From Candidatus Heimdallarchaeota archaeon (lineage in GTDB: Archaea; Asgardarchaeota; Heimdallarchaeia; JABLTI01): a DNA stretch of 64,000 bases. The stretch spans positions 1 to 64,000 of the forward strand of contig JAHLVW010000083.1 in NCBI GenBank assembly GCA_019058275.1, in the 5' to 3' direction. The notes under the pieces were generated by a model. It did not search any database, was not told where the DNA came from, and was given only the letters and a program-made list of their open reading frames with translations. Both the position numbers and the translations under genes were made by a program. This document shows positions 16,042 to 55,089 of this stretch, piece after piece (the stretch's first letter is position 1; each line of letters opens with the position of its first letter).

Positions 16042-16115
16042 GCACTAGAATAATCACTTTCTAAGAAATATTAAGGACTTATTTTTAGAAGGAAAGTCTA
16101 AAAAACTTCTAGTGC
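16042..16115 (+). promoter_or_regulatory. Nested inverted repeats upstream of the corrinoid cluster
   Basis: GCACTAGAA at 16042-16050 is the exact reverse complement of TTCTAGTGC at 16107-16115. Inside lies a second hairpin, TTTTAGA...TCTAAAA, near 16083-16103. The element sits between the HEAT-repeat gene and the corrinoid protein gene, ending about 48 bases before its start. It could be a terminator for the upstream gene or a folded leader of the methyltransferase operon. It does not match a known riboswitch that I can recognise. Confidence 0.4.
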
Positions 16116-16163
16116 TAAAGGTTATGAAGATAATTTGTGATAATAACTAGTTTGGTGGAAATA

Positions 16164-16799
16164 ATGGACATCAGCAAAGAATGTAAAGAATCTATAGTTA
16201 ATGGCAATAAATCTCAAGCTGAAGAATTAGCTAAAAAAGCAGTTAAGGAAGGTCTTGATGTAGATCAAATCATTGATGCCTTTTCTGAAGCTATTAGAGA
16301 AATGGGAGATCTCTTTGAAGAAGGGGAAGTTTTTCTTCCTGAACTTATGAGAAGTGCTGAAGCTATGAAAACAGCAATGAATATTCTTACACCATTGCTT
16401 TCTGAAGGCAAAGCAAATCATATACTTGGTCGGGTAGTTATTGGAACAATTGAAGGTGACATTCATGATATTGGTAAAACACTAGTTGCATCAATACTAT
16501 CTGCTGAGGGATTCGAAGTCTATGACCTTGGGGCTGATGTTTCAGTTAATGATTTTATAGAAAAAGCTCTAGAAGTTGATGCTCACATTATTTGCATTTC
16601 TGCCTTATTGACTACTACAATGATTGGTCAAAGGAAACTCATTGAAGAACTAAAGGAAAGAAACATCAGAGATCGCTTTAAAGTGCTACTTGGAGGAGCA
16701 CCAGTTACTAAACAATGGGTTCAAGACATAGGAGCAGATGGAACTGCAGAAAATGCAGTGAGTGCAACTAAACTTGCTAAGAAATTACTGGGGCACTAA
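16164..16799 (+). CDS. Corrinoid (B12-binding) methyltransferase protein
   Basis: About 211 residues from ATG at 16164, preceded by GGTGG; a GTG at 16137 is a weaker start. The N-terminal helical cap (about residues 1-85) is followed by a cobalamin-binding Rossmann domain with the D-x-H-x-x-G motif in GDIHDIGK (Asp99, His101). His101 would be the lower cobalt ligand. The size and layout match MtbC/MttC/MtqC-type proteins, which shuttle methyl groups between a substrate-specific methyltransferase and an acceptor methyltransferase. It is the first gene of a cluster with both partners (donor side 18441, acceptor side 16814) and a reactivation-like protein. Confidence 0.93.
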   Translation: MDISKECKESIVNGNKSQAEELAKKAVKEGLDVDQIIDAFSEAIREMGDLFEEGEVFLPELMRSAEAMKTAMNILTPLLSEGKANHILGRVVIGTIEGDIHDIGKTLVASILSAEGFEVYDLGADVSVNDFIEKALEVDAHIICISALLTTTMIGQRKLIEELKERNIRDRFKVLLGGAPVTKQWVQDIGADGTAENAVSATKLAKKLLGH

Positions 16800-16813
16800 G
16801 GAGTTGATTTTCT

Positions 16814-17695
16814 ATGGGAAAAGAGAGTATTCTTGAAAAAATCAAGAGAAGAATAGTAGTACTAGATGGAGCTATGGGTTCAATGCTAATAGATCAAGGT
16901 TTACCTGCTGGAACACCACCAGAATATTGGAATGTAAGTAATCCTGAGAAAGTACAAAAAGTTCACAAAGATTATTTTGATGCTGGTTCTGATGCTGTTT
17001 TAACTAACACTTTTGGAGGTTCAAGATTAAAACTAGCTGCACATAAGCATGGGAGTAGTGTTGAAAAATATAATAGAAAAGCTGTTGAGTTAGCTAAAGA
17101 AATTTGTCCAGATGATTGTTATGTAGCTGGTGACATTGGCCCTTCCGGTGCTTTTCTACCACCAGTCGGAACTATTACTATTGAGGAATTTGAGGAAAAT
17201 TATCTCGAGCAAACAAAAATATTGGCTGAAGCTGATGTAGATTTCTTCTTTATTGAAACAATGGTTGATATCAAAGAAGCTGAAGCAGCAGTTAAAGCAG
17301 CTAAAAAAGTGTCAAATAAACCAGTATTTGCATCAATAACTTATCAAAAAACAAAGAGGGGTTATTTTACAATTATGGGTAACTCTGTTGAGCAATGCGT
17401 TGAAATATTGCAGAAGGCAGGAGCTGATGTTATTGGAGCAAATTGCACTATTGGTAGTGATGAAATGATTGATCTTATTCCACAACTCAAAAAAGTTTCA
17501 AAGGTACCTATCTGTGCAAAACCAAACGCTGGAAGACCTCAATTGATTGATGGTAAAACTGTTTATCCAACCACACCTAATGATTTTGCTCAAGATATTT
17601 TACAAATGGTTGAAAAACAAGTAAATGTCATTGGTGGCTGTTGTGGATCAAATCCTGCGTATATTAGAAAAATTGCCCAATTAGTAATGAGGTAG
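16814..17695 (+). CDS. Homocysteine S-methyltransferase
   Basis: A 293-residue Hcy-binding TIM barrel like the N-terminal module of cobalamin-dependent methionine synthase. It opens with VVLDGAMGSMLID, has LTNTFGG and, near the end, GANCTIG with Cys211 and GGCCGS with Cys276-Cys277, the three zinc ligands that bind homocysteine thiolate. It starts 14 bases after the corrinoid protein gene. In context it most likely takes the methyl group from methyl-cobalamin on that protein to make methionine. No folate- or pterin-binding module is fused or adjacent. Confidence 0.9.
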   Translation: MGKESILEKIKRRIVVLDGAMGSMLIDQGLPAGTPPEYWNVSNPEKVQKVHKDYFDAGSDAVLTNTFGGSRLKLAAHKHGSSVEKYNRKAVELAKEICPDDCYVAGDIGPSGAFLPPVGTITIEEFEENYLEQTKILAEADVDFFFIETMVDIKEAEAAVKAAKKVSNKPVFASITYQKTKRGYFTIMGNSVEQCVEILQKAGADVIGANCTIGSDEMIDLIPQLKKVSKVPICAKPNAGRPQLIDGKTVYPTTPNDFAQDILQMVEKQVNVIGGCCGSNPAYIRKIAQLVMR

Positions 17696-17700
17696 AACAT

Positions 17701-18354
17701 TTGAGAATTCTTGAGGAAATTGAAATAACACTCGATGATAATGAAATATTCCATCTATTAAGAGCTGATAACAAATCAAGAAAGAATTCCAAAAAACCAT
17801 CCACAGATTTACTGAATGAAATTAGTGAAATGAAAGAAGCATCTCTTGATTTAATACAGCCTAAGGGAGTCTATGATTGTTTTGAGAGCCACAAGCTAAA
17901 CCCACGTTTTCTTTTTGAAAAATCTGAAAAAACCATTTTAGCTATATGCACAATTGGTGAGTCTTTGGAGAAAAGATGTTCGAAGTTTCTACAAGAAGGT
18001 GAACTAGCAAAAGGAGTTATTCTTGATGCTATTGCTTCACATGCTACTGAAGAAACAGCTTCCTCATTCAATAAATTAATTTTAAATGATTTAACTGAGG
18101 AAGTTGAAAATAAAGAAGTAACAAATAGATTCAGCCCAGGTTACTGTCAATGGATATTAGAAGTTGGACAGAGTTTAATTTTCTCTCTTTTACCTGCAGA
18201 AACTATCAATGTATCATTGAGTGCATCAATGATGATGATTCCTAGGAAATCAGTTTCTTTTGCGGTGAATTTTGGAGATAAGGTTGATAACGAACTAGGT
18301 ATTAGGGTATGCGAAACATGTAATTTAGTAAATTGTGCACATAGAAGAGTATAG
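17701..18354 (+). CDS. Stand-alone MetH activation-domain-like protein
   Basis: A 217-residue protein resembling the reactivation domain of methionine synthase (PF02965). The hallmark RFSPGYCQW is present, preceded by AICTIGESLE, with SLSASMMMIPRKSVSF after it. The C-terminus adds C-x2-C-x4-C (CETCNLVNC), which could bind a metal or Fe-S cluster and is not part of the MetH domain. In MetH this domain presents S-adenosylmethionine to re-methylate oxidised cobalamin. Here it would keep the separate corrinoid protein active. It follows the homocysteine methyltransferase by 5 bases. Confidence 0.8.
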   Translation: MRILEEIEITLDDNEIFHLLRADNKSRKNSKKPSTDLLNEISEMKEASLDLIQPKGVYDCFESHKLNPRFLFEKSEKTILAICTIGESLEKRCSKFLQEGELAKGVILDAIASHATEETASSFNKLILNDLTEEVENKEVTNRFSPGYCQWILEVGQSLIFSLLPAETINVSLSASMMMIPRKSVSFAVNFGDKVDNELGIRVCETCNLVNCAHRRV

Positions 18355-18440
18355 GTTTACAATTTTACTCTTTGATTGCAAAAAATGTTTTTATGATGAG
18401 AAGATGTGTGGTACTAGACAAAAAAAGAAGTGGTTATCTA

Positions 18441-19892
18441 ATGAGACCAGTAATAAATATTCTTGAAAATGAATTAAAGGAAAAGGTTGTCACAGAAGCA
18501 ATAGAAATTCTAGAAGAGATTGGAATCTTTATTGAAAATAATGAAGCTATTGAAATTCTACAGAATGCTGGAATTGATGTTAATCAAGAGAAAAATAGAG
18601 CGAAAATTCCTGCAGATATCGTTAGGAAATCAATAAAATCTGCACCTTCATCAATAACATTGTTTGACCGTGAGGGAAAAGAGGTTACAAAATTAGAAAA
18701 GGAAAATATCTGCTTTGATCCTGGATCTGCAGCTTTACAAGTACTAGATCCTGAAACAAATGAAATTCGTCTTGGCATATCAAAGGATCTTATAAATTTT
18801 ACAAAAGTTGTAGAACAATTGGAGTATATTCATGCTCAAAGCACAGCTATAATTTGTTCTGATGTTCCAGAAGTTGTAGCTGATAGATATCGTCTGTATT
18901 TAGCTTTAATTTACTCAAAGAAACCAGTTATTACAGGTACATTTGCTAAAGAGTCTTTTGAGATCATGAAGGATATGCTAGTCACTATTAGAGGTGGAGA
19001 AAAGGAACTAAGAAAGAAACCATTAGCAATTTTCGATGCATGTCCATCACCTCCTTTGAAATGGAGTGATTTGACTTGTCAAAGTATTATTGATGGAGCA
19101 AAATATGGCATTCCTTCAGAATTTGTTTCAATGCCTATGACCGGTGCGAACGCACCTGTTACTATTCTAGGAGCAATAGTTCAACATGCAGCTGAGACAT
19201 TAGCAGGTATTGTTATTACACAATTGGTTTCACCAAGAGCTCCTGTTATCTGGGGAGGTTCTCCAGCAGTTTTTGATATGAGAAAAGGAACAACCCCTAT
19301 GGGTTCTATTGATACAATGATTTTAGATTTAGGTTTTGTTGAAATTGGCAAGTATCTAAACTTCCCAACACATGCTTATTTGGGTATGTCTGATGCTAAA
19401 ATTCTAGATGCTCAAACTGGATTTGAAACAGGAATGGGAGCATTATTAGCTGGAATAAAAGGAGTCAACATGATTTCCGGAGCGGGTATGATTGATTTTG
19501 AAACAACTCAAAGTATTCAGAAAGTTGTCATTGATAATGAAATCTGCGGAATGGTTCACAAATTCATCAAAGGGATTACTCAAAGAGATGAACCAATTGC
19601 AAAACATTTACTAAAAGAATTTGACGAGAAAACTACTCATTTACTTTCACATGATCATACTTTGAAATGGTTTAAGGAAGAACAATTTATTCCAAGCATG
19701 GTTATTGACCGTTCTACTAACGAAGAATGGATAAATAAAGGTCGCAAATCTATAGGTCAAAGAGCTAATGAACGAGCTGAAAAGCTAATCAAAAAATATC
19801 CTGGCGTAACATTAGAAAAGGATATCATTAATGATTTATCAAAGATTATGAAATACAAAGATGTTGATTTCAAATCATTCTTAGATCTTTAA
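18441..19892 (+). CDS. MttB-family methyltransferase (no pyrrolysine)
   Basis: About 483 residues of the trimethylamine methyltransferase superfamily (COG5598). Characteristic stretches are NICFDPGSAAL, TGTFAKESF, MPMTGANAPVT, VSPRAPVIWGG and GMGALLAGIKG. There is no in-frame TAG, so it is a non-pyrrolysine member like MtgB, MtcB or MtpB, which demethylate glycine betaine, carnitine or proline betaine and pass the methyl group to a corrinoid protein. ATG at 18441 aligns with family N-termini; ATG at 18372 adds 23 unlikely residues. Substrate not determinable. It is the probable methyl-donor enzyme of the cluster. Confidence 0.88.
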   Translation: MRPVINILENELKEKVVTEAIEILEEIGIFIENNEAIEILQNAGIDVNQEKNRAKIPADIVRKSIKSAPSSITLFDREGKEVTKLEKENICFDPGSAALQVLDPETNEIRLGISKDLINFTKVVEQLEYIHAQSTAIICSDVPEVVADRYRLYLALIYSKKPVITGTFAKESFEIMKDMLVTIRGGEKELRKKPLAIFDACPSPPLKWSDLTCQSIIDGAKYGIPSEFVSMPMTGANAPVTILGAIVQHAAETLAGIVITQLVSPRAPVIWGGSPAVFDMRKGTTPMGSIDTMILDLGFVEIGKYLNFPTHAYLGMSDAKILDAQTGFETGMGALLAGIKGVNMISGAGMIDFETTQSIQKVVIDNEICGMVHKFIKGITQRDEPIAKHLLKEFDEKTTHLLSHDHTLKWFKEEQFIPSMVIDRSTNEEWINKGRKSIGQRANERAEKLIKKYPGVTLEKDIINDLSKIMKYKDVDFKSFLDL

Positions 19893-54123: not shown

Positions 54124-55089
54124 TTATAGTTTTTTCATAACTAAATTAGCAAAGTCCTTACTATAATTAACTATTTTTTCATCAAATCCTGGAAACATTA
54201 CTTGATAGTAGTCAAAACCTAAGCTATTTAGGTATTCAAATCGTTCAATGAGTTCTTCTGGATATCCTACCCATGAACCAGGAGTGTCTTGTGTTATTCT
54301 TTCCTTTATAGCTTCCAATGGTCTATTATATCGCTCAGATATATCTTTCAGATAGTTTTCAATTTCCTCCTCTGATTTTGAAACAAATATAGGAATTCCC
54401 ACAGCAAACAAGCTTTTACCAATTTCATCGTAATCTCTGCCAACTACCTTACAATGAGCTTTGAGTATTTCTAATGATCGTTCAAGGTTTGGTCGTAAAA
54501 CGAAGTTACAATAATCTGCTTGTCTTGCAACAATTTTCAGCAGTATTTTTTTGCCCATACCTCCAATCATTATTGGCGGCCATGGTTTCTGAACTGGTTT
54601 TGGAGCTGAAAAAGCATCTTTGATTTTATAATATTGACCCTCAAAAGTAACCTTAGCTTCTGTCCATAGTAATTTTATGATCTCAATAGCTTCCTCCATT
54701 TGGTATAACCGTTCTATTGTTGATGGAAACGGGATTCCATAGGCATTATACTCAATTTCTTTCCAACCGGCACCAAAACCGAAGAATAACCTACCATTGG
54801 AAATCATATCTACAGTTGCAGCCATTTTAGCTAGAACAGCTGGATACCTATAAGAATTACAAGTAACTAGAGTTCCTAATCTAAGTTTTTTAGTTACAGC
54901 TGCTAATGCAGAGAGCAATGTCCAAGCTTCCATACAATTCTTGTTTTCAGATTTGTTATCTAAGAAGAAATGGTCACTAGTCCAGATGGAATCATAACCT
55001 ATCTTCTCTGCTTCTAAAGCTATTTTTTCTACTGTTTTATATTCAAATCCCATTTGAGGTTCTATTTGAATGCCAAATTTTACAGTCAT
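54124..55089 (-). CDS. LLM-class (F420-type) luciferase-like oxidoreductase
   Basis: 321-residue TIM barrel of the luciferase-like monooxygenase superfamily. Marks: GYDSIWTSDHFFLD, LRLGTLVTCNSYRYPAVLAKMAATVD, and LFFGFGAGWKEIEYNAYG, typical of the F420-dependent subgroup. It probably uses reduced F420 or FMN to reduce or oxidise an unknown substrate. Single gene, convergent with the CxxC gene. Confidence 0.9.
   Translation of the reverse strand: MTVKFGIQIEPQMGFEYKTVEKIALEAEKIGYDSIWTSDHFFLDNKSENKNCMEAWTLLSALAAVTKKLRLGTLVTCNSYRYPAVLAKMAATVDMISNGRLFFGFGAGWKEIEYNAYGIPFPSTIERLYQMEEAIEIIKLLWTEAKVTFEGQYYKIKDAFSAPKPVQKPWPPIMIGGMGKKILLKIVARQADYCNFVLRPNLERSLEILKAHCKVVGRDYDEIGKSLFAVGIPIFVSKSEEEIENYLKDISERYNRPLEAIKERITQDTPGSWVGYPEELIERFEYLNSLGFDYYQVMFPGFDEKIVNYSKDFANLVMKKL

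Follow-up and report, generated by a model that had tools for sequence, protein, structure and literature searches.

The first 64,000 nucleotides of contig JAHLVW010000083.1 (forward strand; assembly GCA_019058275.1, Candidatus Heimdallarchaeota archaeon), here referred to as the window, contain four adjacent open reading frames on the plus strand (16137–19892). Arranged in the order C-E-A-B, they encode a corrinoid protein (C), a homocysteine methyltransferase (E), an activation protein (A) and an MttB-family protein (B), and raise the question of where this archaeon obtains the methyl group of its methionine. The cluster probably represents a multi-protein methionine synthase, in which an MttB-type donor enzyme stands in place of the folate-binding module of MetH. 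Such a route, with a quaternary amine passing its methyl group straight to homocysteine, had been proposed in a sequence-only reading of the window. The replacement of the folate module agrees with the compact cluster, with B and C being the sole MttB and the sole MetH-type corrinoid protein of the genome, with the conservation of the four genes and with the lack of other donors; the quaternary amine, by contrast, finds no such backing.

The C-E-A-B gene cluster

Protein C (16137–16799, plus strand; open reading frame of 220 amino acids, probable start ATG at 16164) matches the Pfam families B12-binding (95.9 bits) and B12-binding_2 (69.1 bits) as well as the NCBIfam model pyl_corrinoid (TIGR02370; 220 bits, above cut-off). 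Its DxHxxG motif for the lower ligand of cobalamin (D108, H110 and G113; 16458–16475, plus strand) is invariant in all 75 aligned C proteins. Protein E (16814–17695, plus strand; 293 amino acids) constitutes a zinc-type homocysteine S-methyltransferase module (Pfam S-methyl_trans, 242 bits), with the first zinc ligand (Cys211; 17444–17446, plus strand) and the remaining two (Cys276-Cys277 in GGCCG; 17639–17644, plus strand) conserved in 69 of 69 E proteins. Its top NCBIfam model is the homocysteine half of PRK08645, scoring under the full-length cut-off, and the BHMT model NF005718 is matched with 205 bits (cut-off 338).

Protein A (17701–18354, plus strand; 217 amino acids) is a stand-alone activation domain of the MetH type, i.e., the domain binding S-adenosylmethionine (AdoMet). 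The match to Pfam Met_synt_B12 is weak (29.2 bits) but above the cut-off of 25, and the AlphaFold model (pLDDT 89.2) has the activation domain of T. maritima as top Foldseek match (1j6r, TM 0.70), followed by MetH activation domains. The AdoMet-binding RxxxGY motif (RFSPGYC; 18127–18147, plus strand) retains R143, S145, G147 and Y148 in 83 of 83 A proteins, while the adjoining Cys149 is specific to archaea. Protein B (18372–19892, plus strand; probable start ATG at 18441, 482–483 amino acids) belongs to the non-pyrrolysine methyltransferases of the MttB superfamily (COG5598; Pfam MTTB, 290 bits). Its AlphaFold model (pLDDT 89.6) matches MttB (7xcl, TM 0.91) and MtgB (9yce/2qne, TM 0.90) in Foldseek. 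C and E are separated by 14 nt and E and A by 5 nt, while 86 nt lie between A and the probable ATG of B. Profiles, folds and alignments hence bear out the four adjacent genes on one strand and the motifs named in the sequence-only reading.

Conservation of the cluster and exchange of the E gene

For comparison, 80 loci were fetched by similarity to A, and the resulting counts therefore measure conservation around A rather than the frequency of the cluster. All four genes are present in 45 of them (41 C-E-A-B, four C-E-B-A), always on a single strand; the others are mostly cut by contig ends, or belong to Aminicenantes, in which E is missing beside C, B and A. The loci span Heimdall- and Hodarchaeal genomes, Zixibacteria, Eisenbacteria, Krumholzibacteriota, WOR-3, one Coprothermobacterota and one Acidobacteria bin, with A and B being 0.9–3.7 kb apart in some archaea. 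The survey of related genomes that the sequence-only reading had called for thus finds the four genes together in archaea and several bacterial phyla, and a chance neighbourhood is rejected by this recurrence. Over 46 loci, the pairwise distances calculated for the four proteins show correlations of 0.87–0.94, which mainly reflect common descent.

The Hodarchaeal cluster E proteins group with an unlinked paralog of the window genome (C33, L053; support 100 in a quick maximum-likelihood tree, the type used for all phylogenies here) and not with the E proteins of the Heimdall clusters. A common clade of both cluster E groups is rejected (p-AU 0.0006, the groups having been named after the tree was seen). 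Since the two E groups derive from different paralogs while the archaeal B proteins form one clade (support 99), the E slot was refilled. Two E paralog groups beside a single B lineage argue for E and B working together; judged from these trees, such an exchange would be expected if the methyl group of B must end on an enzyme of this kind.

Other methyl donors and methionine synthases

The window genome is a metagenome-assembled genome (MAG) of 4.12 Mb from the Heimdallarchaeia (92.8% complete, 6.8% contamination), and was surveyed together with its relatives in one scan of a genome collection. It encodes one MttB (B) and one MetH-type corrinoid protein (C), and no MetH folate module, Meth_synt_2 domain (PF01717; MetE/Mes), methylenetetrahydrofolate reductase (MTHFR), MtrH or CdhD was detected in it. 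The absence of metE and metH foreseen in the sequence-only reading therefore provisionally holds for this genome, and neither a complete MetH nor a folate module of the MtrH/MetH type, which would have spoken for a conventional donor, was found elsewhere in it as far as it is searchable. Homocysteine does arise in the window genome, since it encodes an adenosylhomocysteinase (above cut-off). Two proteins contain a Pterin_bind domain (PF00809): a dihydropteroate synthase and a protein of family TIGR00284. The former (contig C61) was considered as a hidden folate module and rejected, being a bona fide dihydropteroate synthase above cut-off.

Among the 27 genomes of the class with B (window genome included; G018 counted via its E-B pair), MTHFR (over cut-off), Meth_synt_2, the MetH folate module and MtrH are all lacking in 23, the exceptions being G010, G018, G027 and G029; a MetH-type pterin module is missing in 26. 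The bacterial side is more mixed: full MetH occurs in at least two of the 36 cluster-bearing genomes, and a MetH-type pterin module is present in 14 and absent in 11 of the 25 genomes with E in the cluster (among the matches listed).

These counts bear on an arrangement like that of Ruegeria pomeroyi, where MtgB, MtgC, MtgD and MtgE connect the demethylation of betaine with methionine synthesis, MtgC being common to both and the pterin subunit MtgD being essential for the latter (PMC12478193). C would then serve not only B and E but also a pterin-binding subunit whose gene lies at another site, so that methionine methyls would also come from methyl-folate or methyl-tetrahydromethanopterin (methyl-H4MPT), and amine methyls would also go to pterin. 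The experiments in R. pomeroyi and the 14 bacterial genomes support this arrangement. With the pterin module missing from the window genome and nearly all archaea with B, the window PF00809 proteins assigned to dihydropteroate synthase and TIGR00284, and MTHFR missing too, it appears unlikely for the cluster described here.

The TIGR00284 protein itself, which combines a pterin-binding domain with a domain resembling a portion of MtrA, might instead deliver the methyl group from H4MPT, leaving B as a side entrance only. The protein is present in the window genome and most of the genus, and its gene in the window genome lies next to genes for glycine cleavage and for a dihydromethanopterin-reductase-like protein. 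The related family f4, however, has the cluster, and no TIGR00284 protein was found there. Moreover, no methylene-pterin reductase was recognised: MTHFR is missing, the luciferase-family gene in the window falls short of the cut-off for Mer, and genes of this luciferase family are lacking altogether in four genomes from the genus. This source of methyl groups is accordingly very improbable. The luciferase-family gene (54124–55089, minus strand) had been a candidate for methylene-H4MPT reductase and was rejected, since its top family is F420_Rv1855c and the Mer model is matched with 92 of 348.7 bits; it encodes an F420-dependent luciferase-like oxidoreductase of the F420_Rv1855c family. The row of genes around TIGR00284 (L218, 5339–11413 on contig G000:C61) comprises the dihydromethanopterin-reductase-like gene, the dihydropteroate synthase-like TIGR00284 gene with its MtrA-like C-terminal stretch and glycine cleavage-like H, P1 and P2, of which P1 was confirmed as GcvPA; it suggests that glycine cleavage in this lineage operates with an H4MPT-type C1 carrier.

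Proteins of the S-methyl_trans family may also use other thiols and selenols as acceptors. E could thus pass the methyl group to such a compound, the cluster then serving detoxification or salvage rather than methionine synthesis, and E indeed scores under the cut-offs of the full-length equivalog models. Against this stand the lack of any other recognisable methionine synthase in an organism with adenosylhomocysteinase (unless an unlinked E-like protein serves) and the association of E with a MetH-type activation protein. In addition, P. inhibens uses the corresponding subunit as a module of its methionine synthase (PMC5764234). Taken together, a different acceptor is quite improbable.

Several relatives differ in their equipment. 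A near-complete MetH chain, comprising the modules for homocysteine, folate and B12, and an activation domain encoded by a gene of its own and devoid of the Cys tail occur in G034 (L050, G034:C265; genes adjacent) and G018 (L051, L065), instead of or in addition to the cluster, and in G018 a true MTHFR gene shares the contig with the MetH chain. In three genomes (G010:C87, G015:C8 and G033:C314; L072, L073, L075, L123–L125), Meth_synt_2 adjoins a distant MTHFR-like gene (~50 bits), possibly forming another methionine synthase pair. Full CdhD is restricted to one genome of the genus (G008:C7:337975–340128, L211), representing either real acetyl-CoA synthase genes or contamination of the MAG. 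Open reading frames of 320–570 amino acids in many relatives (L212–L216 and others; families f2 and f4), outside the genus of the window, align with the CdhD profile solely over its final third (positions 265–386).

The MttB-family protein

The codon of B aligned to pyrrolysine-334 of Methanosarcina MttB is ATG (Met; 19386–19388, plus strand). This position is Met or Leu in 70 of 70 cluster-linked B proteins and the position of Tyr364 is Ser in 68 of 70, the reference rows of MttB and MtgB in this alignment having been copied by hand, with small errors possible. No in-frame TAG is present in B, and the score against TIGR02369 is under cut-off. A function of B as pyrrolysine-dependent trimethylamine methyltransferase is therefore ruled out, given the ATG at the pyrrolysine position and the lack of TAG there in any B. 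A match to Rfam PYLIS_3 (19386–19485, plus strand; above the gathering threshold) begins at the very codon aligned to pyrrolysine, in a gene without TAG. This match reflects coding homology with mttB; apparently, the Rfam model recognises mttB genes by their coding sequence in general.

Phylogenetically, the 70 B proteins linked to a cluster fall into a single clade (support 100, branch length 1.55), apart from MtgB, from pyrrolysine-containing MttB and from the extra MttB proteins of the Hodarchaeal genomes G025, G027 and G029. Parallels to O-demethylases and dehalogenases were also considered and do not bear on B: the Bathyarchaeial 'MtgB' is a protein of ~300 amino acids without homology to known MT1 proteins, and CdmB belongs to the UroD family.

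Comparison with known systems

With MetH, the cluster shares the homocysteine (three zinc cysteines), B12 (DxHxxG) and AdoMet activation modules. Unlike in MetH, these reside on separate chains, and the folate module (Pterin_bind) is absent from the cluster, with the MttB-like protein in its place. Separate MttB-family, corrinoid and homocysteine methyltransferase proteins with one shared corrinoid carrier, all present in the window genome, resemble MtgBCDE and split MetH. The split MetH of P. inhibens consists of three parts, with RamA (DUF4445) and DUF1638 implicated in reactivation (PMC5764234); neither RamA nor DUF1638 is encoded within the cluster, to which the search for both was confined. 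The window genome differs from MtgBCDE by the lack of an MtgD candidate and of MTHFR, by the MetH-type activation protein, by the arrangement of the four genes in one cluster and by the Asgard host. Since the folate module and MtgD were both searched for without success, the cluster is neither MetH nor MtgBCDE.

The combination of a non-pyrrolysine MttB-family enzyme and a corrinoid protein is shared with the glycine betaine demethylase MtgB/MtgC and with MtpB, MtcB and MtyB. In the present cluster, however, the acceptor is a homocysteine methyltransferase instead of a pterin or coenzyme M methyltransferase, and B belongs to a separate clade with other active-site residues. Formation of methionine from a methyl-corrinoid protein without folate, as predicted here, resembles the core folate-independent synthases MesA–MesC, which are MetE-like and are predicted to receive the methyl group from MtrA or CoFeSP (PMC7857596). 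The synthase predicted here is instead of the MetH type with an MttB-type donor, and no PF01717 is found in the window genome. Among Asgard archaea, non-pyrrolysine MttB and corrinoid proteins also occur in Atabey- and Freyarchaeia, where MttB-like genes lie beside MtrH and transfer of the methyl groups to tetrahydrofolate or H4MPT has been proposed (PMC11291895); in the cluster described here MtrH is lacking and the neighbour is a homocysteine methyltransferase.

A link of amine demethylation to methionine synthesis is not new in principle, given MtgBCDE of Ruegeria (PMC12478193), while C-E-A-B without a pterin module exists in none of the compared systems. No paper describing the cluster was found in the literature searched, which excluded most subscription journals. 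By analogy, the cluster is predicted to work like MetH with another donor module.

Predicted methyl transfer and nature of the donor

From the family assignments we infer three reactions together with their direction, the donor and the protein contacts. B would demethylate a nutrient, which judging from the family is most likely an amine, either quaternary or tertiary (e.g., a betaine), and transfer the methyl group to the Co(I) of the corrinoid on C. Methyl-C would then dock on E, the zinc of which would activate homocysteine (supplied at least by adenosylhomocysteinase) for the formation of methionine. Upon oxidation of the cobalt to Co(II), A would bind AdoMet via RxSxGY and aid in re-methylation after reduction, like the activation domain of MetH.

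Six observations weigh against a methionine synthase with a methylated amine as donor. (i) The active site of B lacks the residues of MttB (pyrrolysine, Tyr364) and differs there also from MtgB, wherefore the substrate cannot be read from known members. (ii) The common betaine-binding import family OpuAC is not found in cluster-bearing archaea, in a search that did not extend to BCCT and other transporter families. (iii) Two further stand-alone E-like proteins are encoded in the window genome (L052, 7491–8381 on G000:C115; L053, 8184–9077 on G000:C33), the latter being of the E group used within the Hodarchaeal clusters. (iv) C, B and A occur together without E in the cluster in Aminicenantes (L176, L183, L186–L188, L199, L205, L206). 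(v) In the 14 bacteria that also possess a MetH-type pterin module, the cluster is not the sole methionine synthase. (vi) The gene absences in the window genome are provisional because of the incompleteness of the MAG.

The first two of these observations, together with the separate position of the B clade, do not bear out the quaternary amine put forward in the sequence-only reading. They are in line with correct machinery and a different donor, i.e., with B drawing the methyl group for C and E from a tertiary amine, a compound methylated at O or S, or an N-methylated metabolite of the cell itself. No characterised member among those compared falls into the clade of B, and neither a recurrent transporter nor another substrate-naming gene was apparent by eye among the commonest neighbour families, which were left unannotated. 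On the other hand, the characterised enzymes of the superfamily (MtgB, MtpB, MtcB, MtyB and pyrrolysine-containing MttB) all act on amines to our knowledge, and B is nearest to these in fold and sequence, rendering such a donor somewhat unlikely.

A methionine synthase with an MttB-type donor would represent a class with its own donor module, and would give a role to a large clade within the MttB superfamily that has been uncharacterised so far. The occurrence of the cluster without a folate step in Heimdallarchaeia and several bacterial phyla would explain the regeneration of AdoMet and predicts dependence on methylated nutrients. Tentatively, one may go further and speculate that most cluster-bearing Heimdallarchaeia and some bacteria use no methyl group reduced on folate or H4MPT for methionine, all methyls of methionine and AdoMet being drawn by a dedicated enzyme of the MttB clade from a methylated compound that is either imported or recycled. 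Such Asgard archaea would depend on other organisms for methyl groups. The compact set of four proteins would also be suited for asking whether corrinoid methyltransferase modules are exchangeable.

The cysteine tail of the activation protein

Near its C-terminus, A carries a CxxCx4C tail (C204, C207 and C212; 18310–18336, plus strand), on account of which the sequence-only reading regarded the protein as possibly self-sufficient in electrons. This is only a guess, given that the confidence of the AlphaFold model is lowest in the tail, which is absent in Aminicenantes. Together with Cys149, the tail could hold a cluster, a zinc-binding or structural role being equally likely. Archaeal A proteins carry it, as do most of the bacterial ones, among them stand-alone activation proteins not linked to the cluster (Clostridia, L209; Dehalococcoidia, L192 and L201), and it is mostly missing in those of Aminicenantes; it is therefore not special to the cluster. 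Among the Aminicenantes, L166 retains the tail.

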